Origin: Oscillospiraceae bacterium
GTDB taxonomy: Bacteria > Bacillota > Clostridia > Oscillospirales > Acutalibacteraceae
NCBI GenBank assembly: GCA_015066635.1
Contig: SVOA01000012.1
Location: 1 to 41,338, forward strand
Length of the DNA: 41,338 bases
Direction: 5' to 3'
The notes below the pieces were generated by a model. The model saw only the letters and a list, made by a program, of their open reading frames with translations. It searched no databases and was not told the origin of the DNA. This document shows positions 4,280-20,749 of the stretch, one piece after another; positions within the stretch are counted from its first letter, which is position 1, and each line of letters starts with the position of its first letter. Made by a program: the position numbers and the translations under genes.

Positions 4280-4282
4280 ATG

Positions 4283-4660
4283 TCAGAAAACCTCTTTTAA
4301 ATCGGGGGTCTGACTGTCGGATATTATTTCAAGCTGTGCTTTGATTTCGGAGCACAGCTTTTTTATTTCCGAGGTATCCTTATTACGGACGCAGTAGTCA
4401 AGTCGGGCAAAGCTTTTATCAAGCTTGTCTGTTCGGTCGTGCGTTACAAAAAAACTCAGTATGATTTTTTTGCTCTGCCACTCTTTGGTTACAAGAGAGG
4501 CATTTTTTAATGCCATATCGGTGCTTTTGTCCGCGGAGTATTCGGTTTGCGACAAACTGCCGTAAAGTCCGTTACAGACGTTTTTAACGCAGAAATACGA
4601 GGAAACGGAAACGGTAAACGAAATTACGATAAAAATTATTCCAATAATCAGTCTTTTCAT
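4283..4660 (-). CDS. DUF4363-like membrane-anchored protein
   Basis: 125 residues with one N-terminal hydrophobic segment (about 4-26, LIIGIIFIVISFTVSVSSYF) and a charged helical remainder, predicted to face the outside or the intermembrane/spore space. Length, topology and position after a DUF421 gene match the DUF4363 family, which in Clostridia is commonly the second gene of a DUF421-DUF4363 pair. The ATG overlaps the DUF421 stop by 4 bases (ATGA), indicating translational coupling. No biochemical function is established; a role with the upstream DUF421 protein is inferred. The 3' end abuts rimI tail-to-tail. Confidence 0.7.
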   Translation of the reverse strand: MKRLIIGIIFIVISFTVSVSSYFCVKNVCNGLYGSLSQTEYSADKSTDMALKNASLVTKEWQSKKIILSFFVTHDRTDKLDKSFARLDYCVRNKDTSEIKKLCSEIKAQLEIISDSQTPDLKEVF

Positions 4661-5331: not shown

Positions 5332-5411
5332 TTAATCACCTTGCTTTATCATTTGCTGCTTTGTACGGAATAATACATCTGTTTCGGGCAATAACAAATA
5401 AAGGTGATGGT

Positions 5412-6914
5412 ATGGCTGATAATTTTAACGCAAAATTCAGCAGAGTAACTGCCGAAAACATAAATGACGGTTTCAGACAAAAAATATCTAAAAGCGTTTT
5501 GAAAAATTTTGAGGTATTCGGGAATATTTTTAAAAACTGTTCGGATGTATTGATTGAACGCTCTGAGGTCGGCGGTTTTGAGGCGCTTTTTATTATGACT
5601 GACGGGATGTGCAATAATCTGCTTGTCAGCGAACAGATATTAAACCCTATTCTTACAAGCGATAATTCAAGTCTGAAAGCCGACAGAATGATGCGTCTTA
5701 TCTGTGAAAACACAGTTGCGGGAATTGACCGTAAAATTAAAGCCGAATACGGAGAAATTGCCGAAGCCGTACTGTCGGGGTGCTTTGCAGTTATGCTTGA
5801 CGGCGTAGATTACTGCGCGCTTTTCGGAGCGCAGGGCTTTCCCAAGAGGAGCATATCCGACGCTCTTACCGAGGTGGATGAAAGATCGTCGCACGAGGCG
5901 TTCTGCGAGAGCTTCAAGGATAATGTTGCGCTTATGAGGAAACGGCTTCATACACCGCTTTTCAAAACGGAGAATATGGTGCTCGGAGACGTCAGCCGTA
6001 CTACCGTGTGTATATGCTATATCGAAAATACGGCAAAACCCGAAACGCTTGCAAAAATAAAGGAAAGACTTGAGAGCGTAAATTTCAATACCGTACTCGG
6101 CTCAGGATATGTTTCCGAGCTTTTAGACAATAATCATCTATCGTTTTTTTCTTCCGTAGGTACTACAGAAAGACCCGATATAGCCTGCGCCGAAATGGCA
6201 GAGGGCAGGGTAGCGGTTATCGTTGACGGCACGCCCTATGCCGTGATAGTTCCGTTTCTTTTTCTTGAGAATTTTCAGACGGCAGACGATTACAGCTTCC
6301 GTCCTTTTTATTCTTTATTTGCCCGTCTTATCAAGCTTACCGCATTTTTTACGGCGGTGCTTCTGCCCGCCTTTTATATAGCGGTATGCACATTTCATCA
6401 GGAGGCCTTGCCCGTCGCGATGTTATACGATATGGCGGTGCAGGAGAGCATAACTCCGTTTCCCGTGCTTATTGAAACTCTTTTTATTCACTTTGTTTAC
6501 GAAATCGTCAGGGAAGCGGGTCTGCGTATGCCGCGCGCTGTCGGCTCTGCCGTGAGCATAGTCGGCGGTCTTGTTATAGGGGAAGCCGCGGTTTCTGCGG
6601 GACTTATCGCTTCGCCTATGCTTATAGTTGTCGCTTTTTCGGCTATTACTTCGTTTGTGATACCGAATCTGTATCAGCCAATCTCCCTGCTCAGATTTAT
6701 GTTTATGCTTTTGTCCGGATTTTTTGGTTTTTACGGTATCACGGTCGGTTTTACCGTGCTTGTTTTAAATATGACGGTAACGGGCGATTATTCTGTTTCG
6801 CAAACGGCACCTTTGATGCCGTTTTCACTTGAAGCTATGAGGGATACATTTGTAAGACTGAACTGGAGAAAACTCGGCAGACGTCATTTTCTTATAAACA
6901 GGATGGAACGGTAA
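5412..6914 (+). CDS. gerA: Spore germinant receptor A subunit (GerA family)
   Basis: A subunit of a Ger nutrient receptor in the inner spore membrane. 500 residues: a hydrophilic N-terminal half (1-300), a membrane half with several helices (about 300-460), and a short basic tail (RLNWRKLGRRHFLINRMER). Family hallmarks include QESITPFPVLIETLFIHFVYEIVREAGLRMPRAVG (about 350-390) and SIVGGLVIGEAAVSAGLIASPMLIVVA. The ATG at 5412 follows AAAGGTGAT by 4 bases; upstream TTG starts lack a binding site. First gene of gerA-gerB-gerC-MGMT, each overlapping the next. Such operons are normally under sigma-G; no convincing sigma-G box could be seen in the 80-bp divergent region. The germinant cannot be predicted. 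Confidence 0.95.
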   Translation: MADNFNAKFSRVTAENINDGFRQKISKSVLKNFEVFGNIFKNCSDVLIERSEVGGFEALFIMTDGMCNNLLVSEQILNPILTSDNSSLKADRMMRLICENTVAGIDRKIKAEYGEIAEAVLSGCFAVMLDGVDYCALFGAQGFPKRSISDALTEVDERSSHEAFCESFKDNVALMRKRLHTPLFKTENMVLGDVSRTTVCICYIENTAKPETLAKIKERLESVNFNTVLGSGYVSELLDNNHLSFFSSVGTTERPDIACAEMAEGRVAVIVDGTPYAVIVPFLFLENFQTADDYSFRPFYSLFARLIKLTAFFTAVLLPAFYIAVCTFHQEALPVAMLYDMAVQESITPFPVLIETLFIHFVYEIVREAGLRMPRAVGSAVSIVGGLVIGEAAVSAGLIASPMLIVVAFSAITSFVIPNLYQPISLLRFMFMLLSGFFGFYGITVGFTVLVLNMTVTGDYSVSQTAPLMPFSLEAMRDTFVRLNWRKLGRRHFLINRMER

Positions 6915-7972
6915 TGACAAAGGAAAAAATATCTGCAAAACAGCTTTTTGCGTTGCTTTTCGTGTCAAGAATTCTCTCAACGCTGACCTTTACGCCTTCA
7001 CAAAATTCGGACGCGGGACTCTCCGATTATATACTGGCGGCGTTTGTCGGCGGTATTGCGGAAGTGATATTCTTTATCCCTGCGATTATTCTTTCCGAAA
7101 GGGGAAAGAGTCTGCAGGAGTTTGCAGGTCAAATATCACAGAAACTCGGCAAAACGGTTTCGCTTATATATGCGCTGTATTTTCTGTATCTGATGGCATT
7201 TACGTTTTCAAGACTTGTCTTTTTTGTGTCGTCGGTAATGTTTTGCAACGCGCCTGTCCTGCCCATCGTTCTTATTACCGCTGCAGCCGCGGTTTATGCC
7301 GTTTCAAACGGTATTGAAAGCATAGGTAGAACAGGGGCTTTCGGCGCATTTGTGCTGACGGTAGCGCTTGTGATTATATTGGTTTCTCTGTCGTCAAAGC
7401 TTGATACTGATAATCTGACTCCGCTTTTTTACAGCGGAACAAAACCCTTCTTTCTGCTTAGCTTAACGGTTATAATGAGAACGTCGGAGCCGGTTTTTAT
7501 CTATACTCTGATACCGAAAACATCCGGAAATATAAAAAGGGAATTTACGGTGTGGTGGATAATTCTGACACTTTTTGTAACAGTGCTTACCTTCTTTTTG
7601 ATGTGCTCTCTCGGAGAACTTTGCACAGTATCGATGTTTCCGTATCACGCGATGGCTGAACTGTCGGAATTCAGTGTCATAGAGCGTATGGACTCACTTC
7701 TGACGGGTGTGTGGATACTGTCGGCGTTTGTCAGAATCAGCCTTTGTGCCTATTGCTTCAAAGACTGTGCTTCGGGCGTGAATAAACAAACGGGGACAAT
7801 GACGGTAAGCTTGATAATCTTCGCTGTTTCGGCGGTTACGGCGGCAGCGTCAAATAAAAACCTGATGCTTTACGAGGCTTTCAGCAGTCTTGAAATACGG
7901 CTTGTTCTGTTTGTGGTTTTTGTTGTTGTGATACCCGTTTTGTTACTGTGCGTAAGGAGAAAAAAAGCATGA
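6914..7972 (+). CDS. gerB: Spore germinant receptor B subunit (GerAB/ArcD/ProY-type permease)
   Basis: 352 residues with about ten predicted membrane helices, the normal size and topology of GerB subunits, which belong to the APC amino-acid transporter superfamily and bind the germinant. The opening ISAKQLFALLFVSRILSTLTFTP and central KLDTDNLTPLF fit the family. The ATG shares its first base with the last base of the gerA TAA, and the end overlaps gerC by 4 bases. Partner subunits are encoded on both sides, so assignment rests on both sequence and context. Confidence 0.93.
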   Translation: MTKEKISAKQLFALLFVSRILSTLTFTPSQNSDAGLSDYILAAFVGGIAEVIFFIPAIILSERGKSLQEFAGQISQKLGKTVSLIYALYFLYLMAFTFSRLVFFVSSVMFCNAPVLPIVLITAAAAVYAVSNGIESIGRTGAFGAFVLTVALVIILVSLSSKLDTDNLTPLFYSGTKPFFLLSLTVIMRTSEPVFIYTLIPKTSGNIKREFTVWWIILTLFVTVLTFFLMCSLGELCTVSMFPYHAMAELSEFSVIERMDSLLTGVWILSAFVRISLCAYCFKDCASGVNKQTGTMTVSLIIFAVSAVTAAASNKNLMLYEAFSSLEIRLVLFVVFVVVIPVLLLCVRRKKA

Positions 7973-9114
7973 AAAAAGCGGTTTGCTTTGCGGTACTTTT
8001 TGTAACATTATTGAGCTTTACGTCCTGCTCGGGGAACACAAAAAGCCGTGAAATTAAAAACAGAGTAATAATTCAGGGCATAGGATTTGACACGGCGGAG
8101 AACGGCAAACTGCTCATCAGCTTTCAGACGCTTAATACCGATGTCTCGACAAATTCCTCGTCTGACAGTTCGCCTGACAGTCTGGTGAAATGTTATAAAA
8201 CCGAGGCGCTCTCTTTAAGTGAAGCGCTTAAAAATCTCGCATCCGCCACGGGCAAAATGCCTCTCGTTTCACAAAACAGAATTGTGATTTTCGGCAGTAA
8301 TTTTGCACGAGTTGGGATAACTTACTGCCTTGACGAATTCATACGCGATGCCGAAAACCGATTTACAGTTATTTCTGCTGTTTCGCAGAGCAGGGCAGAG
8401 GACATTGTCTTTGCCGCTCTTGGCGAAAATGTCATTCCCGCGCGAATTTGTGAAAAAGTCCTTAAGCAGAGCGCTTCAAAGCCAGAAAACTGTGCGACGG
8501 AGCTGTATGAGGTAATCAATTCCGTGCTTACCGACAGGGCGTTTGTCCTGCCTGTAATAGCTGTAAACGACAGAGAAGAAACCGAATTCCTGACGGTTAC
8601 GGGCGCAGGTCTTTTTAAGGACGGAAAACTTGTAAATATACTGAATCCCGATGTTTTTAAAGGCATCGGCTTCCTTAAAAACAGGGTGCGCGACGGCTCA
8701 CTCGGAATTATGAGTGACGGGGGCGTTCTGAGTGTTAATATTATAAAGAGCAAAACCGAAATCAATTTTGAAAACACCGATAAAATCAGGACGCATGTCA
8801 GAATTCGGACAACCTGCAGTCTTGCCGAAAACAACCGTGATTTTCTAAAACCCGCAGATACAGAATTTATAAAGAAAACAGAAGAGTTAACTTCCGCAGA
8901 AACGACAAAACTTGTTGAAACTTCGCTCAGAGAGTGTATAATAAATAACAGCGCTGATGTTTTCGGAATTACCGAAAGGATAAAGAGAAAATATCCCTCG
9001 GCTTTTAAAAACGGGGATATTGATATAAAGGATATTGAGTTTTCTGTTTATACCGAATCCAAAATAGAAAAAACGGGCGATTTCGCCGTCAGAGTGTCGG
9101 GGAGAGAAAAATGA
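7969..9114 (+). CDS. gerC: Spore germinant receptor C subunit (Ger(x)C lipoprotein)
   Basis: 381 residues. The N-terminus MKKAVCFAVLFVTLLSFTSC is a lipoprotein signal with Cys20 as the probable acylated residue. Conserved Ger(x)C features follow: RVIIQGIGFDTAENGKLLISFQTLN (about 30-55), SLSEALKNLASATGKMPLVSQNRIVIFG, and a C-terminal segment DVFGITERIKRKYPSAFKNG. The protein is the outer-face lipoprotein of the Ger receptor. The ATG at 7969 forms ATGA with the gerB stop and is preceded by AAGGAG 9 bases upstream; a start 21 bases earlier was rejected because it would overlap gerB further without its own binding site. Its stop overlaps the next gene (ATGA). Confidence 0.94.
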   Translation: MKKAVCFAVLFVTLLSFTSCSGNTKSREIKNRVIIQGIGFDTAENGKLLISFQTLNTDVSTNSSSDSSPDSLVKCYKTEALSLSEALKNLASATGKMPLVSQNRIVIFGSNFARVGITYCLDEFIRDAENRFTVISAVSQSRAEDIVFAALGENVIPARICEKVLKQSASKPENCATELYEVINSVLTDRAFVLPVIAVNDREETEFLTVTGAGLFKDGKLVNILNPDVFKGIGFLKNRVRDGSLGIMSDGGVLSVNIIKSKTEINFENTDKIRTHVRIRTTCSLAENNRDFLKPADTEFIKKTEELTSAETTKLVETSLRECIINNSADVFGITERIKRKYPSAFKNGDIDIKDIEFSVYTESKIEKTGDFAVRVSGREK

Positions 9115-9419
9115 ATACTTTTGAAATAATTTACGAAACAGTTCGCGGAATACCCAAAGGTAAGGTCGCAACCTACGGGCAGATAGCTCTTTTGTCGGGC
9201 AACCCGCGTCTTGCAAGGGTTGTCGGCTATGCTCTGCACGTCAATCCCGAGCCGGGAAAGATTCCCTGCCATCGGGTAGTCAACCGTTTCGGCAGGGTTT
9301 CCGAGGCGTTTGCCTTCGGAGGTAAGAATGCGCAGACAGACCTGCTGAGAAATGAGGGAGTCGAGGTAAGCGACGACGGAACAGTTGATTTAAAGAGATT
9401 TCTCTGGGACGGGAAGTAG
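9111..9419 (+). CDS. Short MGMT-family methylated-DNA--protein-cysteine methyltransferase
   Basis: 102 residues corresponding only to the C-terminal DNA-binding and active-site domain of O6-alkylguanine-DNA alkyltransferases. The acceptor motif PCHRV is intact (Cys53); in alkyltransferase-like (ATL) proteins this cysteine is normally replaced, usually by Trp, so the protein could be catalytically competent. VRGIPKGKVATYGQIA is the recognition-helix region; the Asn-hinge equivalent and VVNRFGRVSEAFAFGG follow. The ATG overlaps the gerC stop by 4 bases, so the gene is translated with the germinant-receptor operon, implying forespore expression and possible repair of DNA alkylation on germination (inference). 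A terminator follows at 9432. Confidence 0.85.
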   Translation: MNTFEIIYETVRGIPKGKVATYGQIALLSGNPRLARVVGYALHVNPEPGKIPCHRVVNRFGRVSEAFAFGGKNAQTDLLRNEGVEVSDDGTVDLKRFLWDGK

Positions 9420-9431
9420 TTTTATTTGCAG

Positions 9432-9458
9432 GGGCGCTCTTCAGGCGCCCGATTTTTT
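9432..9458 (+). terminator. Terminator of the ger-MGMT operon
   Basis: GGGCGC at 9432-9437 pairs with GCGCCC at 9445-9450, followed by T6. Located 12 bases after the MGMT stop codon. Confidence 0.85.
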
Positions 9459-9471
9459 CTTACGCAAAAGA

Positions 9472-9497
9472 CGGACGGTAGGTTCGAATCCTATCCG
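9472..9497 (+). other. Orphan tRNA T-arm relic
   Basis: GTAGG-TTCGAAT-CCTAT at 9478-9494 is a complete T-arm (5-bp stem with TTCGAAT loop) in plus orientation, but no D-arm or anticodon arm precedes it. The 15-mer GTAGGTTCGAATCCT at 9478-9492 is identical to the T-arm of tRNA-Gln at 9552-9566, which lies on the opposite strand, so the two form an inverted repeat. It may be the tail of a lost tRNA gene or a scar left by a tRNA-targeting element. Confidence 0.5.
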
Positions 9498-9533
9498 AAA
9501 AAAACGAAAGACAAAGATAAACTCTGTCTTTCG
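9498..9533 (-). terminator. Terminator of tRNA-Gln
   Basis: On the minus strand, CGAAAGACA pairs with TGTCTTTCG (9525-9533 and 9505-9513), then a T7 run at 9498-9504. It begins 6 bases beyond the CCA end of tRNA-Gln. Confidence 0.85.
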
Positions 9534-9538
9534 TTTCT

Positions 9539-9613
9539 TGGCTGGGGTGGCAGGATTCGAACCTACGAATGCAGCAGTCAAAGTGCTGTGTCTTACCGCT
9601 TGACGACACCCCA
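9539..9613 (-). tRNA. tRNA-Gln(UUG)
   Basis: Cloverleaf on the minus strand: acceptor TGGGGTG/CACCCCA, D-arm with CAAGCGGTAAG, anticodon loop ACTTTGACT giving anticodon UUG, T-loop GGTTCGAATCC, discriminator G and an encoded CCA at 9539-9541. The tRNA body is 9542-9613. Confidence 0.95.
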
Positions 9614-9639
9614 GGGTATATATGAATATAATGATATTA

Positions 9640-9670
9640 AAAAAGACCTTTTTTAGAGGTCTCTTTTTTA
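9640..9670 (-). terminator. Bidirectional terminator between tRNA-His and tRNA-Gln
   Basis: AGACCT at 9644-9649 pairs with AGGTCT at 9657-9662, with A/T runs on both sides, so it can end transcription in either direction. It would end the Arg-His transcript, leaving tRNA-Gln dependent on read-through or a weak promoter in 9614-9640. Confidence 0.7.
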
Positions 9671-9675
9671 TGAAG

Positions 9676-9753
9676 TGGGGTGGATAGTCGGATTCGAACC
9701 GACGGTCTCCAGTGCCACAAACTGGCGCTTTAACCAACTAAGCTATACCCACC
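9676..9753 (-). tRNA. tRNA-His(GUG)
   Basis: Cloverleaf on the minus strand with acceptor GTGGGTA/TATCCAC, anticodon stem CCAGT/ACTGG and loop TTGTGGC (anticodon GUG). The histidine-specific extra G(-1) at 9753 is encoded and pairs with discriminator C73; CCA is encoded at 9676-9678. Confidence 0.96.
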
Positions 9754-9758
9754 GTATA

Positions 9759-9835
9759 TGGCGCGCTGAGAGGGACTCGAACCCCCGACCCTCTGCTTAG
9801 AAGGCAGATGCTCTATCCAGCTGAGCTATCAGCGC
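9759..9835 (-). tRNA. tRNA-Arg(UCU)
   Basis: Cloverleaf on the minus strand with acceptor GCGCTGA/TCAGCGC, D-arm GCTCAGCTGGATAGAGC, anticodon stem TCTGC/GCAGA with loop CTTCTAA (anticodon UCU), T-loop GGTTCGAGTCC and encoded CCA at 9759-9761. First gene of the cluster, 5 bases before tRNA-His. Confidence 0.96.
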
Positions 9836-9853
9836 ATTTGCTAATGCCAAATT

Positions 9854-9882
9854 ATTATATATGCAAGGGGAGAATTTGTCAA
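9854..9882 (-). promoter_or_regulatory. Sigma-A promoter of the tRNA cluster
   Basis: Near-consensus TTGACA, 17 bases, TATAAT on the minus strand, about 12 bases upstream of the probable start and 19 bases before tRNA-Arg. A strong match, as expected for stable RNA genes. Confidence 0.85.
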
Positions 9883-10066
9883 GATTATATTTGAAAAAAG
9901 TGCTTTTTTGTGAGGAGGGTTTAATTTGTTTCAAGGCTATGTATAAAAATTCGAAACCGCTGAATATTTATGCAAAATATACAAATCACTCTCATTCTTT
10001 ATGTACAATATACAAAAAGTTAAAATATTAACGAGAAAAAACCGTGAAAAAATCAATAAAAAACAG

Positions 10067-10095
10067 TTGATTGTTGTTTTGCAATATGATATACT
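10067..10095 (+). promoter_or_regulatory. Predicted promoter of the dockerin protein gene
   Basis: TTGATT, 17 bases, TATACT, leaving an AT-rich leader of about 70 bases before the ATG at 10173. The rest of the 337-base gap 9836-10172 holds only AT-rich sequence and no gene that I can support. Confidence 0.5.
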
Positions 10096-10172
10096 GACTT
10101 TCGGCAATATTGTATTATATATAATATTTATCGAATTAAGTAAAAACCATTTTGTTTTGGGAGGACAGATTT

Positions 10173-13100
10173 ATGAGAATGAAAAACTATTCAAGGAAGG
10201 CAATAAGCATTTTGCTTTCCGTACTCTTGGTGGCGACTATGCTTCCTATGTCGATATTCGTTTCGACTGCGGCAACCGCCCCTGTTGTAAGCTCCGGCGA
10301 GTGGAACTTTCGCTCAAAGGAAACACCTGAAGACAAGTATTATTCAAGATTTAAGAATAACTATTCCGCACTTGATCTTCAGGGTCCCGAGTATGTTACC
10401 ATGGTCGTTGCGGGAACCAATTTCTTCTTTATGCAGACTGAGGACAATCAGGAAATGAGCTACACCACTCATTTCTACGCTCAGAAGAACAACCGTTTTA
10501 ACGGCGCAAGGATTAACTACGTTAATACCAACTATAACAATGATACGGTTTATTCATCTGTCGTAACTAACGAGACATGGACGCATGTCAGCGGTAAAGT
10601 TGATAATGAAAACTCCAACGGTTCTCCTGACGGCATAGGACTGTACGGTTACGCTTTAGCTGCCGCTCAGATTGCTCATTACAGCTTTAAGGTTGACTTT
10701 ACGGCAAACGGTTCAGCTGTTTATACCCCCGAGTGGGAAATAAACTTCAACAGCGGCGCTGCAAGTACTGACGGCGGTCCGTGGACCACATCAAACTTCA
10801 ATGTTGATAGTGTTGCAATCAACGAAAACCCTGTTTTCACTATCACTGTTATTGACCTTCGTGAAATTCGTCAGCTAATTACAATAGCAAACAATATCAA
10901 TGAGGATGTTTCCGATATTGTCGGCACAAGAGATTTCTCGGGCGCAACATATTATTCGCAGTCGGAAATTGACACTCTTACCGCCCAGCTTCGCGCAAGA
11001 CTTCTCTGTGATTACACAGACCTTGACGCACAGCTCGCGAGAGCTGCTGCAATAGAGGATAATATTAACGGCGGACTCAGCGGACATCTTTACGATGAGA
11101 CGCTTTACAATGTATTCAGCACAGCGTACAGCGATGCGGCAGCCGTTGACCGTTTCCTTATGGAGGACGGAACCGGAGATAACCAGGATACTATTGACAG
11201 CGCTGCTTTGACTTTACAGACAGCTATTGACAATCTTCTTCCTTCCAGAATGTATCTTATAAATTATTATTCGGACGGTGTTCTCTATGCACAGAATACC
11301 GTTGACCCCTCAAAGGGTTATAATTTCCACGATGCTACCGATAAGTTCATAGCCGAACCCACCCTTGCAAGATATGAATTTGACGGCTGGACCGATTCTC
11401 TCGGTAACTATATCGATGATGATTATCCCGTTACCGGAGATATGAATGTCTATGCGGGTTACGCAGTTGCTCTTAACGGTATCGGCCCCGTTTCTTCATC
11501 GGGCAGATGGGACCATATTCCGTCAGCCGATAATAATGACGGACGCGGCGAACACTATGTTACAATGTGGGTTAAGGATACAACCTTTAACTTTGTTCAG
11601 ATAGCCGATGACGAAACCTTCTCCTTCTATACCGATTTGTCAGGCTTCAAAAACAGCGGTACTAATTATGCCGTTATCCATGAGCTCTATTTTATGGATG
11701 ATACCGATACACAGGCTTTTACGGCTCTTCTGCCGCAGACCGGCTATCTTGAGTCTTACTGCACAACCGGCAACGCAGGCGATTTCCCGTCAGGCGATCC
11801 CGACGGAGCTTTCCCCGGCGAGAACCACGGTACAGACGATGACTTTGTATATCAGAGCATTACAAACGTTGTAAACTGGAGATTTGTCTATACCTTTAAC
11901 GCTGACGGTGCGGCAACATATCATCCCAAGTGGGATATGAAATATGAAACCGGCGGCGTCAAGATTTTGGGCATGGGTACGGGAACATATTATCTTTCCA
12001 ATGATAACGAGCCCATAGAGTTCACAATAAACGTAACCGACCTTCGTGAGCTTATCAACGAGGTTAACAAGGCTGAAAGCGTTTATAACAACAGTAATTC
12101 GGGCTTCTCGCAGAGTCAGCTTGATGATTTGAGAACAATACTCGATAATATTGAAAACAACTATGTCCTTGACGGTACCGAATACTATGAGCAGAGCGAA
12201 ATAGACGCTCTTGTAGCACAGATAAAGGCTATCATACCCAATGGAATGCAGATTCCCTGCGACTACACCGAGCTTGATGCAGCTATTGCTCTTGCAAACC
12301 AGAAAAAGACAGAGTACAACAATAATGCAGACAGCCACTTCATAACCGAAGTTTGGACTAATTTTGAGACAGCATACGCAGCGGCAACATCAATTGACCG
12401 CAACCTTTATATTGTAGATACAAATGAAAATCAGACTTTGATAGACCGTACAACGGCTGATCTTCTCAAAGCTATTGATTCGCTTCTGTATCAGACTCAT
12501 GTCAACGAGCCCTGCGACACAGTGTCTGCAAATGATGTTATGGATGAAGCCAACGCAATTAACAATGACAACGGTAAGTATGACGATGATGCTTATCAGG
12601 ATTTCCTTGATGCTAAGGACGCTCTTGAGGACCTCCTTGACCAGGGACTATATGATGATGAGAACGGCACAAACCAGCAGGCTATTGATGATGCGGTTCA
12701 GGCTCTTGAGGATGCAATAGCAGCTCTCAACGATGCACAGAATCAGAATCCTCCCTGCGACTATACAGCGCTTAACGAGGCCATTGCAGCAGCTTCTTCA
12801 ATTACAGACAGCGATTTGTTCACACCTGATACCTATCAGGCTCTTCAGGATGCTTTGACTGCTGCCGGGAATGTACCTGCAGGTCTTTACGATAACGGTA
12901 CAAATCAGGGCATAATTGATGATGCAACAGATGATTTGATAGATGCTATCAACAATCTTCTCAGTGATGTAATTGCAAATTCAAATAATGTTTCCACAGA
13001 CGGAATGACATCTGCTTCCAAAACCGCATTTACAGATGCCGTAGCTGCAGCAGAGCAGGTAACCAGCAATCCCAATGCAACAGCACAGGATAAGGCTGAC

Positions 13101-15125
13101 GCCATCAACGGTATAGTTTCTGCAACTGACGCTCTTACTCCCGACAAGACAGAACTTGGAGAAATAATAAATCTTGCCGAGGCTATTGATACAACAATTA
13201 TTGACCCCGCAGTTGTTCAGGTGCTCCAGGATGCCATTGCAGACGGTCAGTCAGTATATGATAATGATGCTGCAACCGTTCAGGATATAAATGATGCAAT
13301 TCAGACTCTTAAGGATGCAATAGACGATGTTCTTCAGAGCATAGTAAACGATGCAAATAATATTGATGCAACTGCAATGACTCCGATAACACAGACAAAT
13401 TTTGAAGATGCACTTGATGATGCTCAGAATCTTATAGATAACGGCGGTTCTGATCAGGAAAAGGCAGATGCGATAAATGCTCTTGTAATGGCCATTGATA
13501 ATCTCACTCCCGACAAGACAGAGCTTGAGGAAGCCATCACGGCAGCACAGGGTGTTGACACAACCGACATTCCGCAGACTCTTGCAGAAGCGCTTGAGGA
13601 TGCGATAACCGACGGTCAGACAGTTAATGACGATACCGACGCAACGGTTCAGGAAATTGCCGATGCAGTTGACGCTATCAACAACGCTCTTGACAATATA
13701 CTTGAATATGTCAAGGAGCAAGCGGAGAATACCGATACAACCGGCATGACTCCCGACAGTATTCAGGACCTTGAGGATGCAATTCAGGCGGCAGAGGACG
13801 TACTGAACGATCCGACATCAACTTCTGCAGAAAAAGCTCAGGCTATTGAGAACCTTCAGGATGCCACAGACGGTCTTACCCCCGATAAGACGGAACTTAC
13901 AGAAGCAATTGCCGCAGGTCAGTCGGTTGACACGACAGACCTTCCGCAGACTCTTGCAGAAGCGCTTGAGGATGCGATAACCGACGGTCAGACAGTTAAT
14001 GCCGATACCGACGCAACGGTTCAGGAAATTGCCGATGCAGTTGACGTTATCAACGACGCTCTTGACAATATACTTGAATATGTCAAGGAGCAAGCGGAGA
14101 ATACCGATACAACGGGTATGACTCCCGACAGTATTCAGGACCTTGAGGATATTATCCAGATAGCCGATGACCTTCTCAATGACCCTGATGCCACGGCAGA
14201 AGAAAAAGCTCAGGCAATTGAAGATATTAAGAATGCAGTTGATAATCTTACCGTTGATAAGTCTTCACTCTCTGATTTAATCGATCAGGCAGAGGCAATC
14301 GATCAGGATGATTATACAGGCGATTCCGCAACAGCTCTTCAAAATGAAATAGATGACGCGTATGTTGTTCTTTATGATGACAACGCTACGGCTTCCGACG
14401 TTGCTCAGGCAATTACAGAGCTTCAGAATGCCATAGATAACCTTATTGACAGAACTGCTCTCGCTCAGGCTATTGCTGATGCACAGGCTGTTGAGACATT
14501 AGGTTACACACCCGACAGCATAAGAGATCTTCTCGATGCAATAGATGCAGGTCAGACGGTTTATGACGATTCAGCAGCAACGGCTGCCGAAATCGCTCAG
14601 GCTATTGCTGATATTGAAGCAGCGGTCAACGGACTTACCTATATGAATATCATTACTAAGGATACACATTCGCTTAGAGTATTCAGAGATACAACGGCTA
14701 ACTATATGGTAGGTATTGATCCTACGGCAAATACGGTAGCCGACATCAAGGCGGGTCTTGTAAATGACGCAAGAACAATTATCATCTTAAAAGCTGACGG
14801 AGTTACCGAGCTGACGGAAACTGAAAAGGCAGGTACGGGTTACCTTATCAGATGCGTAAACGCGGATAATCATAATACGGTTTATGATGAAGCAACCATT
14901 ATCCTTTACGGCGACGTTGACGGAGACGCAGACGTTGACAGCGATGATCACGACATCCTCAAAGATTCTGCATTCTTTGACGGAATAGGTATAACCGCTG
15001 ACACGGTTTACTTCTATGCAGCCGACCTCGACGGCGATAAGGTGCTTGACGGCTTTGACTACTATTATCAGGATGTCATTATGACAACGCCCGATAGCTT
15101 TAATCAGTCGGTAGTAATTTTCTGA
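10173..15125 (+). CDS. Giant secreted FIVAR-repeat protein with C-terminal dockerin
   Basis: 1650 residues, very acidic. Order: basic signal peptide (1 to about 33, cleavage near STAA); domain A1 (about 37-230, opening VVSSGEWNF, with YVTMVV..TNFFFMQ); a FIVAR-like helical repeat (about 270-355); an InlB/Flg_new-like beta module (360-435, ARYEFDGW); domain A2 (from about 438, VSSSGRWDH, YVTMWVKDTTFNFVQ), a second copy of A1; about ten FIVAR-like repeats (about 620-1510) marked by LTPDKTEL and IQDLEDAI; a short beta region; and a dockerin (1580-1635) with two calcium loops, DVDGDADVDSDDHD and DLDGDKVLDGFD. Dockerins bind cohesins, so this protein probably docks to a scaffoldin or the cell surface. 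No catalytic domain is visible; A1/A2 is not recognised. The ATG follows GGGAGGA by 7 bases. Terminator at 15277. Confidence 0.88.
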   Translation: MRMKNYSRKAISILLSVLLVATMLPMSIFVSTAATAPVVSSGEWNFRSKETPEDKYYSRFKNNYSALDLQGPEYVTMVVAGTNFFFMQTEDNQEMSYTTHFYAQKNNRFNGARINYVNTNYNNDTVYSSVVTNETWTHVSGKVDNENSNGSPDGIGLYGYALAAAQIAHYSFKVDFTANGSAVYTPEWEINFNSGAASTDGGPWTTSNFNVDSVAINENPVFTITVIDLREIRQLITIANNINEDVSDIVGTRDFSGATYYSQSEIDTLTAQLRARLLCDYTDLDAQLARAAAIEDNINGGLSGHLYDETLYNVFSTAYSDAAAVDRFLMEDGTGDNQDTIDSAALTLQTAIDNLLPSRMYLINYYSDGVLYAQNTVDPSKGYNFHDATDKFIAEPTLARYEFDGWTDSLGNYIDDDYPVTGDMNVYAGYAVALNGIGPVSSSGRWDHIPSADNNDGRGEHYVTMWVKDTTFNFVQIADDETFSFYTDLSGFKNSGTNYAVIHELYFMDDTDTQAFTALLPQTGYLESYCTTGNAGDFPSGDPDGAFPGENHGTDDDFVYQSITNVVNWRFVYTFNADGAATYHPKWDMKYETGGVKILGMGTGTYYLSNDNEPIEFTINVTDLRELINEVNKAESVYNNSNSGFSQSQLDDLRTILDNIENNYVLDGTEYYEQSEIDALVAQIKAIIPNGMQIPCDYTELDAAIALANQKKTEYNNNADSHFITEVWTNFETAYAAATSIDRNLYIVDTNENQTLIDRTTADLLKAIDSLLYQTHVNEPCDTVSANDVMDEANAINNDNGKYDDDAYQDFLDAKDALEDLLDQGLYDDENGTNQQAIDDAVQALEDAIAALNDAQNQNPPCDYTALNEAIAAASSITDSDLFTPDTYQALQDALTAAGNVPAGLYDNGTNQGIIDDATDDLIDAINNLLSDVIANSNNVSTDGMTSASKTAFTDAVAAAEQVTSNPNATAQDKADAINGIVSATDALTPDKTELGEIINLAEAIDTTIIDPAVVQVLQDAIADGQSVYDNDAATVQDINDAIQTLKDAIDDVLQSIVNDANNIDATAMTPITQTNFEDALDDAQNLIDNGGSDQEKADAINALVMAIDNLTPDKTELEEAITAAQGVDTTDIPQTLAEALEDAITDGQTVNDDTDATVQEIADAVDAINNALDNILEYVKEQAENTDTTGMTPDSIQDLEDAIQAAEDVLNDPTSTSAEKAQAIENLQDATDGLTPDKTELTEAIAAGQSVDTTDLPQTLAEALEDAITDGQTVNADTDATVQEIADAVDVINDALDNILEYVKEQAENTDTTGMTPDSIQDLEDIIQIADDLLNDPDATAEEKAQAIEDIKNAVDNLTVDKSSLSDLIDQAEAIDQDDYTGDSATALQNEIDDAYVVLYDDNATASDVAQAITELQNAIDNLIDRTALAQAIADAQAVETLGYTPDSIRDLLDAIDAGQTVYDDSAATAAEIAQAIADIEAAVNGLTYMNIITKDTHSLRVFRDTTANYMVGIDPTANTVADIKAGLVNDARTIIILKADGVTELTETEKAGTGYLIRCVNADNHNTVYDEATIILYGDVDGDADVDSDDHDILKDSAFFDGIGITADTVYFYAADLDGDKVLDGFDYYYQDVIMTTPDSFNQSVVIF
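13572..13778 (+). repeat. 207-bp internal repeat, copy 1
   Basis: Near-identical at the DNA level to 13944-14150 (only about six differences seen by eye), with a period of 372 bases or 124 codons. Encodes residues 1134-1202 of the dockerin protein. The low divergence marks a recent in-frame duplication. Confidence 0.92.
13944..14150 (+). repeat. 207-bp internal repeat, copy 2
   Basis: Second copy of the 207-bp unit, encoding residues 1258-1326. The sequence between the copies (13779-13943) is related to other FIVAR units but much more divergent. Confidence 0.92.
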
Positions 15126-15137
15126 TAAACAATTTTT

Positions 15138-15264
15138 AAAGAGCTGAGTTTTACGGGTAAGTGGATATTTTTGGAGTTTTAAAATAATTCAAATATTTAT
15201 AGTGGATTATTTTGGTGTTTAATAATTAGCATTTTTATAATTCAATTTGGATTATTTTGGTGTT
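15138..15264 (+). repeat. Left inverted end with three iterated 17-bp motifs
   Basis: The terminal block is 15138-15182. Motif copies start at 15162 (TGGATATTTTTGGAGTT), 15203 and 15248 (both exactly TGGATTATTTTGGTGTT). Steps are 41 and 45 bases. The block lies 12 bases after the dockerin-gene stop and before its terminator hairpin. Confidence 0.85.
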
Positions 15265-15276
15265 GAGCAAAATTTA

Positions 15277-15312
15277 AATCCTGTCGAAAAATTTTTTCGG
15301 CAGGATTTTTTA
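15277..15312 (+). terminator. Terminator downstream of the dockerin gene
   Basis: AATCCTGTCGAAAAA pairs with TTTTTTCGGCAGGATT, followed by T5. It lies 150 bases after the stop codon, with the iterated repeats in between. Confidence 0.8.
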
Positions 15313-15332
15313 TTTATAAAATTTTTTGTGAA

Positions 15333-15368
15333 CAAAGAAAAATACCCTCCATTTCGAAATGGAGGGTA
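15333..15368 (-). terminator. Terminator of the hsdR remnant
   Basis: The perfect 13-bp palindromic stem TACCCTCCATTTC/GAAATGGAGGGTA (15343-15368) is followed on the minus strand by TTTTTCTTT, 6 bases after the hsdR stop codon. Confidence 0.88.
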
Positions 15369-15374
15369 AAATAT

Positions 15375-18098
15375 TTATACTCCGAAGAATTTCTCGAAGA
15401 ACGATTGAAGCTTTTCGATAACCGTTTCCTTCTTTTCTTCACGGTCACCGCCGCCGAAGCGTGAAATCTTAGGCATGATTCTGTCGATATCCGTTCCGGT
15501 GGTTTTAACAGCACCGTCTCTGAATGCACCTTCGATGTACTTCCTTGTTTCGGCTTCGTTAAGGTTTTCTTCTTTGATGATTCTCTGAAGTTCTTCTTCC
15601 TTTTTCTCAACAACGAATGAACGCCATTCTGTCAGAACGTCGTCAACATCATTGATACCGGCAATAAAGTTCTCGATAAGGTCCTTCTTGCTGCGGAGTT
15701 CAGGGCTTGCATCAACGGCCTTGCGGATGGAAATAAGAACTTCCTTATCGCTGCAATGCGAATCGTGATATTTAGCAACCAGCAGAAGGATATAGTCAAT
15801 ATTAACCTCAATCTGCTTAATGAGCTCAACCTCAAATACGATGTCATCATTGACATCTTCAAGCTGGCCCTTCTTACGCTTTTCTTTCCATTCATCACGA
15901 AGGTCCTGATACTTGGACAGATAATCCTGAAGGTCTCTTTCCGAGAACAAATCTTTACCTTCGAATTCGTCGAAGCTTATAAGTACATTACGAAGGCGGA
16001 GAATAGCACCGAACTGCGAAATGAAGTCTTTCTGATTCTGCTCGCCGATAATCTGCGGAATATCAACGGGGAACTTCTCAATAAAAGCCTCAACCATATT
16101 AACATATCCGACTTCAGACTTATCGTTTAAATCTTTGGCTTCGTAGCCGTAATAGTAATCGTTGAAGCTCTTGAGAACAACGATACCGCCTGCTTCTTTG
16201 TCGCCGAACAGCGAAATCGCATCATCAACACGCTTCTGGAGATTTCTGAAGCAAACAATATTACCGAAAGTCTTTATGGAATTCAGAATTCTGTTCGTTC
16301 TTGAGAACGCCTGAATCAAGCCGTGCATCTTGAGGTTTTTGTCAACCCACAAGGTGTTAAGCGTTGTCGCATCAAAGCCGGTCAGGAACATATTGACAAC
16401 TATAAGCATATCAAGCTCCTTGTTCTTCATACGAAGCGATACATCTTTATAGTAATTTTGGAACCTGTCGCCGTCAGTGCTGTAAGATGTCTTAAACATC
16501 TTGTTATAGTCCTGAATTGCTTCTTCGAGGAAATCTCTTGATGTCTTATCAAGAGCACTTGTATCCTCGGGATTCTCCTCGTCGATTATGCCGTCTGCCT
16601 CTTCTTCATTGGCGGCATAGCTATAAATGACAGCAATCTTCAACGCCTTTTCAGGATTGGCTGCCATCTGCTTTTTGAATTCTTCATAATACAGCTTTGC
16701 TGCAGGCACAGATGAAACTGCAAAGATTGAGTTAAAGCCGTTTATGCGTTGCTTTTCACGGATTTCCTGTACCTTGTTTTTACCGCTTGCAACATCGGAA
16801 ATATTCTGCAAAGCGTTGAATGTAAAGGTCTGATTATTGCGATAAGTTTTCTGGTCGAAATGGTTGAGAATATATTCCGTAATAAGCTCAATGCGCTTTG
16901 GAGCGAGAAATGCTTTTTCACGGTCAATATCCCATACCTGCTCGTCAATAATTTCCTCATCCATTTCCATTGTCTTGATGTAATCGACACGGAACGGCAG
17001 AACATTGTGGTCATTGATAGCGTCAACGATTGTGTATGAATGCAGCTGCTGACCGAAGGTCTGTTCGGTCGTGAAGAAGTGCGGATTCTTAACATGTCCC
17101 GCATTTGCCGAGAATATCGGCGTGCCGGTGAATCCGAACAGGTGGTATTTTTTGAAGTTCTTAACAATAGCCGTATGCATATCGCCGAACTGCGAACGGT
17201 GGCACTCATCGAATATAATTACGATGTGCTTGTTAAACACTTCATGTCCCTTGTTACCGTTAACAAAGGTTGAGAGCTTTTGAATTGTTGTAATAATTAT
17301 ATGGCAGTTATCGTCTTCAAGCTGCTTTTTGAGAATAGCCGTTGAGGTGTTGCTGTTGGCGGCACCTTTCTCGAAACGGTCATATTCCTTCATTGTCTGG
17401 TAGTCAAGGTCCTTACGGTCAACGACAAAAAGCACCTTGTCAATATACGGCAGAGCTGAAGCCAGACGGGCAGTTTTAAAGGATGTCAGCGTCTTGCCCG
17501 AGCCGGTAGTATGCCAGATATATCCGCCGCCCTGAACGGTGCCGTACTGCTTGTAGTTATTGGCGATTTCAATTTTGTTAAGTATTCTTTCAGTAGCAAC
17601 AATCTGATACGGGCGCATAACGAGCAGAAGATTTTCCGCCGTTAATACGCAGTATTTTGTAAGTATATTGAGAATAGTGTGCTTCGCAAAGAAAGTCCTT
17701 GTAAAATCAACAAGGTCGGGAATAATCTTGTTGTTTGCATCTGCCCAGAAAGAAGTAAATTCAAAGCTGTTGGATGTCTTTGATTTCTTCGCTTTCGCAC
17801 CCGTCATATCCTTGATATGATTGAAACGGGTGGTGTTGCTGTAATATTTCGTATTTGTGCCGTTTGATATAACGAAAATCTGAACATATTCGAACAAGCC
17901 CGCAGATGCCCAGAAGCTGTCACGCTGATAGCGTTCAATCTGGTTAAATGCTTCTTTAATTGCAACGCCTCTACGCTTTAATTCAATATGCACAAGCGGA
18001 AGTCCGTTGACAAGGATTGTTACATCATAACGGGTTTTGTGAGTGCCTTCATCTTCTTTATACTGATTTATCACCTGAAGGGTATACTTTCCTGTTCT
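15375..18098 (-). pseudogene. hsdR: Type I restriction enzyme R subunit, 5'-truncated
   Basis: HsdR translocates DNA with ATP and cuts it. The frame begins abruptly at GKYTLQVINQYKED; the first available start is a GTG at 18074 giving 899 residues, whereas HsdR is usually 1000-1100, so roughly 100-150 N-terminal residues are missing. Remaining parts (numbered from the GTG) are the nuclease motif D17...E31-x-K33 (YDVTILVNGLPLVHIELK), Walker A HTTGSGKTLTS (188-198), DECH (289-292), FGFTGTP, the second RecA lobe (QAFSRTNRI) and an intact C-terminal helical domain. The fragment continues directly from an hsdS remnant in another frame, so a deletion has joined them. No hsdM is present. The reading frame stays open for 2.7 kb, so decay is recent or the product is retained. 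Confidence 0.85.
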
Positions 18099-18370
18099 TT
18101 AATGGGAGGAACGGGAATAACAAGTTGTTCAATTGCTGTTCTCGGTAAGCGTGGGATACTTGATTTTCTTACCTGAGATAATATTTTAGATTGTTGAGAC
18201 ATTAAGACAAAGTACAAATATCTGTTGTTAAGGTCAGGCGGACAATCGAAAGTATAACAATCATCAGCTGCCCAAAAGTCAATATAACTATATCCGATTT
18301 CTCCTGCAGCACCGGCACCTATAACATAGGCGGTATTATCCTTTCTGTTACTATAATATTTTAAGATTTT
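18071..18370 (-). pseudogene. hsdS: Type I restriction specificity subunit remnant (hsdS)
   Basis: About 100 residues of one target-recognition domain: YSNRKDNTAYVIGAGAAGEIGY, then FWAADDCYTF, LNNRYLYFVLMSQQ, and the terminal signature SSIPRLPRTAIEQLVIPVPPIKEQ. The N-terminal part is missing exactly where the right inverted end begins. After PPIKEQ the frame runs into a TGA at 18071 while the hsdR sequence continues in another frame, so the conserved helical spacer, any second recognition domain and the hsdR N-terminus are deleted. It cannot form a working specificity subunit (a full HsdS is about 400 residues). Confidence 0.8.
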
Positions 18371-18371
18371 G

Positions 18372-18512
18372 AACACCAAAAAGCACCACCAAATATTTAG
18401 GCAAAAAAAATAATTGGCGTTAATTTCTAACACCAATTATTTGTAAAAATCAAAGTATTAAAATTTCCTTAACTCCAAATTAATCCACTTACCCGTTTTA
18501 CTCAGCTCTTTT
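18372..18512 (-). repeat. Right inverted end with iterated motifs
   Basis: On the minus strand, AAAGAGCTGAGTAAAACGGG opens the block at 18512. Motif-like copies start near 18488 (TGGATTAATTTGGAGTT), 18445 (ending TTGGTGTT) and 18402 (TTTGGTGGT), i.e. 43-base steps; a further TTTTTGGTGTT lies at 18372-18382. The hsdS remnant begins right at the inner edge. Confidence 0.8.
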
Positions 18513-18521
18513 TATTTTTAT

Positions 18522-18564
18522 AATAAAAAAATATCCGTCCCGTTTAACCGTGGGACGGATATTT
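18522..18564 (-). terminator. Terminator of the ara operon
   Basis: The 13-bp stem AAATATCCGTCCC/GGGACGGATATTT (18529-18541 with 18552-18564) is followed by a T7 run on the minus strand. It is just downstream of araD and just outside the right inverted end. Confidence 0.92.
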
Positions 18565-18575
18565 ACCTTATTGCT

Positions 18576-19280
18576 TTATTTTTGACCGTAATAGGCGTTT
18601 TTACCGTGCTTACGCTGATAGTGCTTGTCAAGGAGATAGTCCTCAATTCCGGGCTGTTTTTTGCCGTGTTCCGCGATTTGCTCGGTACGGTATGCCATCT
18701 TTGCAACCTCTTCGAGTATAAGGGCATTTTCAACTGCTTTTTCGGCGCTTTTGCCCCAGCAGAAAGGACCGTGTCTGTGGATAAGCACAGCAGGGCAGTC
18801 TGACGGGTTTATTCTGTTATTATTGAAGCATTCCACGATAACTTTGCCCGTGTTAAGCTCATAGTCGGTTGCCACTTCGTCTTTTGTAAGTCCTCTTGTG
18901 CAGGGAATTGCACGGTTGGCAAAGTCTGCGTGAGTTGTGCCGTATGCCTTAATTTCCCTGCCTGCCTGTGCAAAGCTTGTTGCCCACGGGGAATGTGTAT
19001 GCACAACTGCCTTTATGTCCTTAAACTGACGGTAAAGCTCCAAATGTGTCGGGGTGTCGGAGGAGGGGTTGAGCTTTCCCTCGACAACGTTGCCGTCAAG
19101 GTCAACAACAACCATATCCTCAGCCTTCATTGTGTCGTACGATACTCCCGAGGGCTTTATTACGAACAGACCCGATTCACGGTCTATTGCAGATACATTG
19201 CCCCATGTAAGTACAACGAGCCCGTATTCCTTAAGCAGAAGATTTGCTCTGAACACTTCCTGCTTTAACTGTTCAAGCAT
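18576..19280 (-). CDS. araD: L-ribulose-5-phosphate 4-epimerase
   Basis: Converts L-ribulose 5-phosphate to D-xylulose 5-phosphate, the last step of L-arabinose entry into the pentose phosphate pathway. 234 residues, class II aldolase/epimerase fold: [23 protein letters not shown] near the N-terminus binds the phosphate, and the zinc ligands sit in [15 protein letters not shown] and [10 protein letters not shown]. The ATG at 19280 is chosen because GGAGG lies 9 bases upstream, inside the end of araA; the ATG shares one base with the araA TAA, so the two are coupled. A TTG start 15 bases earlier lacks its own binding site. No ribulokinase (araB) is in the window. Confidence 0.94.
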
Positions 19281-20749
19281 TATTTGTTCCTCCAAATCAC
19301 ATCATTATATTCAAGTTCTTTACGGAATTCGTTAATCTTTGTGTCTTTGTTTATATGGACGAATTCAATTCCCATTATTTCTGCAAAATCACGCATATGC
19401 TCGGCGGTAAGGTCGTACGAAAGCACGGAATGATGAGCGCCGCCTGCATATATCCATGCAGTTGCCGAGGTTTTAAGGTCGGGCATCGGTTTCCACAGAA
19501 CACCCGCAACGGGTAATTTAGGCATATCGTTTATCTGCTCCTGACACTCGATGTCATTGACTATCATCCTGAAACGGTCGCCCATATCAATAAGCGAAAC
19601 GACAATAGCGGGACCTTTCTTTGCCTTGAATACCGCTCTTGCAGGATCCTCTCTGTCGCCTATGCCGAGGGGATGTACCTGAATTTTCGGCTTTTCCGAG
19701 GCGAGCGAAGGACATACCTCAAGCATATGAGCACCGAGTATCATTTCGTTGCCCTTTTCAAGATGGTAGGTGTAGTCCTCCATAAATGCGGTGCCTTTGC
19801 CGATTCCCTGTGCCATAACCTTCATAATTCTTGTCATGGCGGCAACCTTCCAGTCGCCCTCTGCGCCGAAACCGTAGCCCTTCAGCATCAAGTCCTGTGA
19901 GGCAAGTCCGGGAAGCTGGCGAAGTCCCTGCAAATCTTCAAAATTGGTATGGAAGGCCTTGAAATTGCCTCTGTCAAGGAATTTTCTGAGCGCAACTTCT
20001 TCTCGTGCCTGATAGCGTACTGCTTCGGTGTTATCGGTGTCCATTATGTAGTTTTCTTTATATTCAGACATTTGTGCGTCGATTTCAGCTTCGCTTACCG
20101 CCTCAACCTCGCGGATAATATCGCCTACGCCGTAGTGGTCAACTGACCAGCCTAATTTGATAAGAGCTTCAACCTTGTCGCCTTCGGTAACGGCAACGTT
20201 GCGCATATTGTCCGAGATGCGCAGTACGCGAAGCTGTCTTGATTCCTTTGCGCCGACAGCAGCGCGCATCCATACGCCGATTTCGGAGGTAAACTCCGCA
20301 TCCTTCCAGTAACCTGCGATAACCTTACGGTTAAGACGTAGTCTTGCCGCAATATAACCGTGCTCGCGGTCGCCGTGCGCAGACTGGTTAAGATTCATAA
20401 AGTCCATATCTATTTCATCCCACGGAATTTCGCGGTTGTACTGAGTGTTGAGATGAAGATACGGCTTACGCAGCGCGGTAAGTCCCTTAACCCACATTTT
20501 GGAAGGGGAGAAGGTATGCATCCATGTAATGACGCCTGCGCAGTTATCGTCATTGTTCGCCTCGTTCATTATCGAGTAAATTTCCTCGCTTGTCTTGACG
20601 CAGGGAAACCATTTGACCGTGCAGGGAATATTGCTGTCGGCATTGAAACCGTCAACCATTTCCTTAGAGTGTCTGTCAATTTCGACAAGAGTTTCCTCGC
20701 CGTAAAGGAACTGTGAACCTACTACAAAATAAAAAACATTTTCTTTCAT
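19280..20749 (-). CDS. araA: L-arabinose isomerase
   Basis: Manganese-dependent isomerisation of L-arabinose to L-ribulose in the cytoplasm. 489 residues, close to the usual 490-500. Characteristic stretches are [15 protein letters not shown] (about 75-90), [61 protein letters not shown] and the C-terminal [14 protein letters not shown], which together hold the Glu and His metal ligands. The ATG at 20749 is preceded by AAAGGCGG. First gene of araA-araD. A palindrome overlapping its predicted promoter suggests repression by a LacI/GntR-type regulator, but no regulator gene is nearby. Confidence 0.96.

Follow-up and report, generated by a model that had tools for sequence, protein, structure and literature searches.

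What was inserted behind a host gene on contig SVOA01000012.1 of an Oscillospiraceae bacterium (Acutalibacteraceae; GenBank assembly GCA_015066635.1), and how did it come to lie where it does? The window analysed is the whole 41,338-nucleotide stretch, and the piece in question, at 15138-18512, has inverted ends and encloses parts of a type I restriction system. An earlier note, made from the letters alone, had taken it for a non-autonomous mobile element with multi-site ends, a view that is supported here by a TTTTA target duplication, an empty site in a related genome and the site arrays themselves. In our judgement it is likely a non-autonomous, internally deleted transposon of 3342 bp, of an unassigned family that is probably of the DDE type, and it was inserted into the loop of a transcription terminator.

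Boundaries of the inserted element

When the right arm is read inward from 18511, it matches 15138-15177 at 34/40 positions, and at 35/41 if the comparison is carried to 15178. The earlier note had given about 34 of 40, which stands, but its right-hand coordinates were one base off: 15138-15182 against 18468-18512 agree at 16/45 positions, while a right end one base lower gives 35/45. The agreement is unevenly distributed, with 11/11 in the outer segment, 22/25 in the inner segment and 11/25, which is noise, in the following 25 bases. Taken as an inverted repeat, the five letters between the outer 11 and the inner 25 agree at 2/5. On the plus strand both sides have TTTTA, a direct duplication, and the five arm-to-tip letters of one side are the reverse complement of those of the other; this is expected of a target duplication but not of a longer terminal repeat. 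Because TTTTA is taken as the target duplication, which the earlier note had suggested looking for, the tips fall at 15154 and 18495. The boundaries 15138-18512 are thereby replaced, and in the preferred reading the first 11 bases of either "end" are host terminator arms that lie outside the element.

15154..18495, element between its tips, 3342 bp (terminal inverted repeat 22/25 with exact 5-bp flanking repeat, top of the scan)
15149..15153, plus strand, target duplication, left copy TTTTA (scan and coordinate check)
18496..18500, plus strand, target duplication, right copy TTTTA (scan and coordinate check)
15154..15178, plus strand, left terminal inverted repeat, tip CGGGTAAG and site 1 (15162-15178)
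18471..18495, minus strand, right terminal inverted repeat, tip CGGGTAAG and site 1 (18471-18487)

The 25-bp terminal repeats start with CGGGTAAG, and the tips read CGGG...CCCG, so that the earlier statement that they are not TGT/ACA is correct. Between the 500-bp stretches at both ends, the best 25-base inverted match is 22, a value reached in 0 of 500 dinucleotide shuffles (maximum 21). When terminal repeats were scanned together with flanking repeats, the pair 15154/18495 (22/25 with an exact 5-bp repeat) ranked first, and the runners-up, other 22/25 pairs with shorter flanking repeats, ranked lower. The boundaries can equally be read with TTT as a 3-bp duplication and tips ACGGG, which gives the identical empty site.

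A terminator probably split at its dyad axis

When the two flanking arms AAAGAGCTGAG and CTCAGCTCTTT are joined around one TTTTA, they fold into a hairpin with a 12-bp stem and a 3-nt loop (-16.8 kcal/mol), which begins 12 nt past the stop codon of the upstream gene and is followed by the T-rich tract TTATTTTTAT. The arms are complementary at 11/11 positions, 11 being the maximum of the test, and none of 200000 random flank pairs exceeded 8 consecutive pairs. From this sequence, the event is best read as an insertion into the loop of the intrinsic terminator of the upstream gene. The point of insertion coincides with the terminator's dyad axis, and in this one event the duplicated bases are the loop and one adjoining pair.

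15138..15148, plus strand, left arm AAAGAGCTGAG of the split intrinsic terminator (joined-flank fold)
18501..18520, plus strand, right arm CTCAGCTCTTT of the split terminator with its T-rich tract (joined-flank fold)
10152..15125, plus strand, host gene with the split terminator, encoding a FIVAR-repeat protein (Pfam; homolog with terminator in genome G009)
18576..19295, minus strand, host gene on the opposite side, class II aldolase/AraD-like, adjoining araA

The same letters could be read in another way, with the whole 41-bp repeat, including GAGCTGAGT, as the terminal inverted repeat and the likeness to a terminator as chance. The near-continuous inverted match of 35/41 speaks for it, as do the tips it would have at 15139/18510 with a 4-bp repeat TTTA. 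Against it, the internal mismatched letters of one end are the exact reverse complement of those of the other, the arms, once joined, and their T-rich tract stand 12 nt past a stop codon where G009 has a hairpin, and the TTTA repeat sits in T-rich flanks. We therefore regard this reading, which expects GAGCTGAG to be kept in a second copy, as very unlikely.

Whether the terminator was sought or hit by chance is another matter. An A/T-rich loop, or a terminator that lies between two convergent genes, is an ordinary landing place for an insertion, and a single event can neither tell terminator-seeking from chance landing nor show that the hairpin was the signal.

The empty site in a related genome

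As the earlier note had proposed, an empty site was looked for, and one was found in G009, a genome of the same genus. There, the same two genes, for the FIVAR-repeat protein and the AraD-like protein, are convergent, 107 nt apart and separated by two hairpins, with the terminator in place and without the element. At the place that corresponds to the split terminator, behind the FIVAR stop codon, stands the first of these hairpins (-15.4 kcal/mol), which is what the insertion model demands. Five other genomes (G021, G007, G035, G028 and G034) keep araD with another coding sequence beside it and no FIVAR match, and G022 has a truncated araD match at a contig end.

This empty site also bears on a further alternative, an invertible DNA segment whose inverted repeats are the sites of a recombinase. 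Inverted repeats of recombinase-site size do bracket a gene here. The empty site in G009, the flanking direct repeat, the split terminator and the lack of a recombinase among the long interior frames all stand against such a segment, and we consider it extremely improbable.

As an observation on the host gene, the tail of the FIVAR-repeat protein has, by eye, dockerin-type EF-hand-like repeats (GDVDGDADVDSDDHDIL ... DLDGDKVLDGFDYY), where the Pfam scan gave FIVAR only. A tail of this sort is also present in the homolog from G009 (L097, 10215-14756).

Site arrays and hairpins in the ends

Each end carries putative protein sites with the 17-bp sequence TGGATNNNTTTGGNGTT. On the left, the 17-mers start at 15162, 15203 and 15248 (element positions 9, 50 and 95), in steps of 41 and 45. 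On the right, sites lie at element positions 9 and 108 with a weak one at 51, in steps of 42 (to the weak site) and 57. Two further motif copies at 41-45-bp steps had been claimed for both ends; this is accurate for the left end but not for the right.

15203..15219, plus strand, left-end site 2, TGGATTATTTTGGTGTT (17-mer match, weight matrix)
15248..15264, plus strand, left-end site 3, TGGATTATTTTGGTGTT (17-mer match, weight matrix)
18429..18445, minus strand, right-end weak site at element position 51 (weight-matrix score 6.4)
18372..18388, minus strand, right-end site at element position 108, TGGTGCTTTTTGGTGTT (weight-matrix score 14.0; 2 mismatches)
15276..15308, plus strand, inward-facing terminator-like hairpin in the left end (terminator scan, weak alone)
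18408..18442, minus strand, inward-facing terminator-like hairpin in the right end (terminator scan, weak alone)
15343..15368, minus strand, terminator-like hairpin after hsdR (terminator scan; plus strand scored too)

The sites were scored with a position weight matrix built from the four exact ones. The right-end site at 108 ranks sixth in the window, its score being reached in 5 of 2000 mononucleotide shuffles of the right end, and one unrelated window position scores 14.6; the site at 51 is not above background when taken alone. Across the 1.73-Mb assembly, TGGATNNNTTTGGNGTT occurs four times without mismatch, always at the element ends, and never with one mismatch. With two mismatches there are 28 sites, one of them in the right end, against 40 for the reversed control. 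Since the exact sites are confined to the element ends and the two-mismatch sites are fewer than in the control, the arrays belong to the element and are not scattered singly. Single scattering and the lack of an empty site were the outcomes that the earlier note had named as speaking against a mobile element, and neither was observed.

Arrays inside short tips are also what a tyrosine recombinase of conjugative transposons of the Tn916/Tn1549 kind might leave, with the 13-bp tips as core sites, TTTTA as the crossover segment and the inner 17-mers as arm sites. The tips are indeed perfect inverted repeats over 13 bp around a 5-bp A/T segment, with the arrays inside. The outermost 17-mer, however, lies within the terminal repeat itself, as in multi-site ends of the DDE type, and both flanking 5-mers are identical, whereas coupling sequences of the Tn916/Tn1549 type need not be. 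Neither a tyrosine recombinase nor conjugation genes were found among the long interior frames, the rest of the genome not having been searched for them. Taken together, we hold a recombinase of this kind to be an unlikely source of the element.

The terminator scan of 15000-18700 gave five terminator-like sites against a shuffle mean of 3.5 (standard deviation 1.9), which is barely above expectation, and the inward-facing hairpin on the right overlaps the weak site at 51. Transcription that enters from outside, read-through from the gene with the destroyed terminator among it, would be kept out of the interior by the two inward-facing hairpins. All six Rfam matches were below the gathering score.

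Restriction cargo

The long interior frames are hsdR and a fragment of hsdS, both on the minus strand with the hsdS fragment first.

15375..18080, minus strand, hsdR remnant, type I restriction endonuclease subunit from residue ~133 (Pfam, join analysis)
18083..18334 (outer limit approximate), minus strand, hsdS fragment, part of one target-recognition domain, in another frame than hsdR

The open frame of hsdR (15375-18074) has 899 codons and lacks ~132 codons at its start; its Pfam domains are HSDR_N from profile position 115, SWI2_SNF2, a T1R_D3-like domain and EcoR124_C. The hsdS fragment covers positions 60-145 of the Methylase_S profile and matches the HsdS of locus L102 in blastx at 30% identity. 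These domains, together with the HsdS recognition-domain fragment, resemble a type I restriction-modification system with an EcoR124-like HsdR. The HsdR sequence takes up at about residue 133 of its relatives, in a frame other than that of hsdS and immediately behind the hsdS words VPPIKEQES, so that, read from the sequence, the hsdS-hsdR junction is evidently a deletion join. A complete type I system is not present, as hsdM is absent from the element and hsdS and hsdR are truncated and fused; as they stand, the genes would not make a working system.

Among the ten closest near-full-length HsdR relatives in the order-wide sample, identity is 75-79%, and hsdM and hsdS adjoin hsdR in L099-L102 (read by eye); the same-genus genomes G011 and G024 have HsdR matches of just 35-40%. 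With the own genome included in both counts, hsdR was found in 18 of 394 genomes of the order at E<=1e-200 and in 17 of 246 relatives at E<=1e-60. In the protein search against plasmids, which returned 2395 records, none of the 12 matches listed exceeded 65% identity, and the 20 phage records were all below 60%.

The idea that the hsd genes are themselves the mobile unit was also considered and set aside, as none of 18 relative hsdR loci is bounded by comparable ends. All 18 regions were scanned for bounding repeats, nine of them also by self-blastn, and one (L079, 3026 bases) was too short to say much. In the other 17, the best bounding matches were 18-22/25, the only 22 being in L104, where the pair connects two coding sequences and has a 3-bp flanking repeat; among the matches listed, those with flanking repeats of 4-6 bp scored 18-20/25. 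Given that hsd parts are missing and that the 18 relative loci lack such ends, we regard the restriction genes as the wreckage of cargo. The truncated HsdR keeps RYD...ELK residues that we take to resemble a nuclease motif, and these residues and the open frame of 899 codons suggest that the hsd deletion may be recent.

Search for other copies

The earlier note had proposed a search for full-length elements between such ends, and in 398 genomes of the family and 39 of the genus no second copy was recognised. The end pattern CGGGTAAGTGGATNNNTTTGGNGTT was searched in both sets with up to 3 mismatches. In the family set it gave nine places in seven genomes, which are the own pair and seven others in six genomes, no two of them on one contig; read backward, the pattern was commoner, with 12 matches. 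Inspection of the seven other places showed no array at 40-60-bp steps. One of them, G047:C38:28-52 (L115), matches the 25-bp end with 3 mismatches and the 17-mer core perfectly; it is 28 bases away from a contig end and, by eye, a short way past an rpsI-like frame, and an inward array is not visible at that contig end. Another, in G126 (L111, around 1500), is a chance near-match among GTGGAG-type repeats, which are presumably an mraZ promoter. In the genus set, two of 39 genomes had matches, namely the own pair and one in a coding sequence (G038), and blastn with each end against the 39 genomes gave short matches only, besides the own ends.

Searches with exact patterns gave 0 and 12 matches in the genome collection, none of the 12 with arrays, and 0, 0, 0, 5, 17 and 10 in the viral collection, none of these 32 with arrays of this kind. 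Among the last 27 viral matches, four have two loose sites (0-3 mismatches) within 60 bp, and none has a CGGGTAAG tip beside an array. Against plasmids and phages, blastn with the left end reached at most 36% coverage with A/T-rich matches. Blastn with the whole element gave 1050 plasmid records, none covering 80%, and the matches listed fall on the hsd part. Within the reach of these searches and the collections covered, the element stands alone, with ends that have no recognisable second copy. A MITE or similar non-autonomous derivative would share its ends with an autonomous parent and lack the transposase; no transposase was seen inside, and no such parent was recognised in the family and genus sets or by exact pattern in the two collections.

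Search for the transposase

The earlier note had reported no transposase inside, and in agreement with it no transposase, tnsB/tniA or recombinase was found among the long interior frames, shorter frames overlapping hsdR not having been searched. Outside the element, PF00665 (rve) had no match at E<=0.01 in the own assembly, which is 97% complete, and was positive in 7 of 14 control genomes. An rve-fold transposase could have been lost if the element is a non-autonomous derivative. PF09299 was found neither in the own genome nor in the 14 controls; 15 of the 398 family genomes were positive, with 18 places in all. All 18 regions were inspected, several being ended by contig ends, and none has the element's sites in arrays.

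The same regions were scanned for TGT tips with 5-bp repeats. From the best 14 of 397 candidate pairs, which were inspected, two were judged convincing; the other 16 PF09299 places were not delimited. The two, L175 at 3964-12256 and L186 at 7061-13638, are Tn7-like elements from the same bacterial family, with TGT tips, 5-bp flanking repeats (ACAAC and GATAA), a first site 8-10 bp from the tip, sites of their own and non-palindromic targets.

Comparison with known transposition systems

Arrays of sites at both ends, as found here (three exact sites on the left; one exact, one two-mismatch and one weak on the right), are a feature of Tn7-like elements, Tn5053, Tn552 and Mu. Tn7 makes a 5-bp target duplication, to which the flanking repeat TTTTA corresponds, the 3-bp reading being equivalent; the tips of Tn7-like elements, Mu and Tn5053 follow the rule 5'-TGT...ACA. 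In the available part of a survey of multi-site transposons, arrays of ~20-bp sites are described at both ends, the median distance of the outermost site from the boundary is 12 bp, and restriction-modification is the most frequent defence cargo (PMC8649781); the present element resembles these transposons in its outermost site, 9 bp from the tip, and in its restriction cargo. By analogy, its geometry would be that of RNase-H-fold (ribonuclease H-fold) transposases of the Tn7/Mu kind, although membership among the Tn7-like elements is not shown thereby. Unlike in L175 and L186, its target is a terminator dyad. Because TGT tips are absent, and the delimited relatives of the family have TGT tips and non-dyad targets, we did not file it as Tn7-like. 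The ends of the Tn3 family and IS21 were considered and set aside because of the tips.

A transposase directed by stem-loops, like those of IS1182 and IS1272, has to be weighed at this point. Such an enzyme would recognise the hairpin or cruciform and join the element at the 5' sides of the two loops, so that the loop only is duplicated. The position on the dyad axis fits this route, as does a duplication made of the loop and one adjoining pair. In the part of the IS1272 paper available (Wan et al. 2017), IS1272, of the IS1182 family, targets inverted repeats or stem-loops, and a hypothetical pathway c joins at the loops and duplicates the loop only (PMC5678879). IS1182 relatives act on target structure with or without duplication, according to the portion at hand of a further paper (PMC12056078). 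The present target, a palindrome and potential stem-loop in one event, is like that of IS1272, but IS1272 itself replaces the stem-loop and leaves no duplication, and the accessible text on it does not mention multi-site arrays (PMC5678879). Here, unlike with IS1272, both stem arms are kept and the loop is duplicated as the 5-bp flanking repeat. Given that IS1272 replaces the hairpin without duplication, the element was not filed as IS1272-like, and we judge a transposase of this kind improbable.

IS1397 and ISKpn1 insert into the loop of their target with a 3-bp duplication. They belong to the IS3 family and, in the part of the source seen, insert specifically within palindromic REP (repetitive extragenic palindromic) sequences (PMC1525189). 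The element shares the palindromic target with them and differs in that they use a repeated REP target and carry their own transposase.

Among the papers listed in searches of the open-access literature, we saw no report of a transposon that duplicates a terminator loop. A novel class is possible for the element. That it belongs to an undescribed multi-site family with CGGGTAAG tips, which selects terminator dyad axes and duplicates the loop, is a tentative proposal that we consider less likely than not.

A model and the points against it

For a deleted transposon in the terminator loop, the following course of events can be proposed. A transposase, probably of the DDE type, would have recognised the 17-bp TGGATNNNTTTGGNGTT sites arrayed in each end, the outermost starting 9 bp from the CGGGTAAG tip. 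After pairing, the ends would have been joined, with a stagger of 5 bp, to the terminator of the FIVAR-repeat protein gene at its dyad axis, an event that made two copies of the loop TTTTA and put one terminator arm on each side of the insert. As cargo, the parent probably had an hsdMSR system; hsdM, the larger part of hsdS, the beginning of hsdR and any transposition genes may then have been lost by deletion. Since no transposase is at hand, we infer the DDE chemistry, and likewise the binding of the putative sites by a transposase and the gene content of the parent.

Several points weigh against this course of events. The CGGGTAAG tips are not TGT, unlike those of L175 and L186 from the same family. 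As there is a single copy, tips, duplication length and target have no replicate. A 22/25 match arises by chance in multi-kb scans, as in 1 of 18 control loci (the pair between two coding sequences in L104), and the tips at 15139/18510 also score 22/25, with the flanking repeat TTTA. The flanks are A/T-rich, so that a 5-bp A/T repeat is weak by itself. In the right-end array, which is degenerate, no site but the outermost (18471-18487) is full, and the empty site is at the level of the genus, not of the strain. Finally, an hsdR frame that is open over 899 codons is odd for long-dead cargo.

Elsewhere in the window, three consecutive genes at 5361-9114 resemble, by eye, an operon for a spore germination receptor of the gerA type.

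What the insertion may mean

Boundaries, a flanking duplication and an empty site are now given for an element that has no recognisable second copy. The locus also illustrates a trap for automated end-finding, in that the arms of a split terminator can be mistaken for the outermost bases of a transposon's inverted repeat. If the terminator loop as target proves to be a rule, it would amount to a structure-guided safe-harbour strategy, and the element would be a natural test case for the loop-duplication route drawn for IS1272-type transposition. With targeting guided by hairpins, if true, such an element could land just past genes almost anywhere, leave the genes unbroken and carry defence cargo along, and the inward-facing terminators in both of its ends would replace the one that its insertion destroyed.

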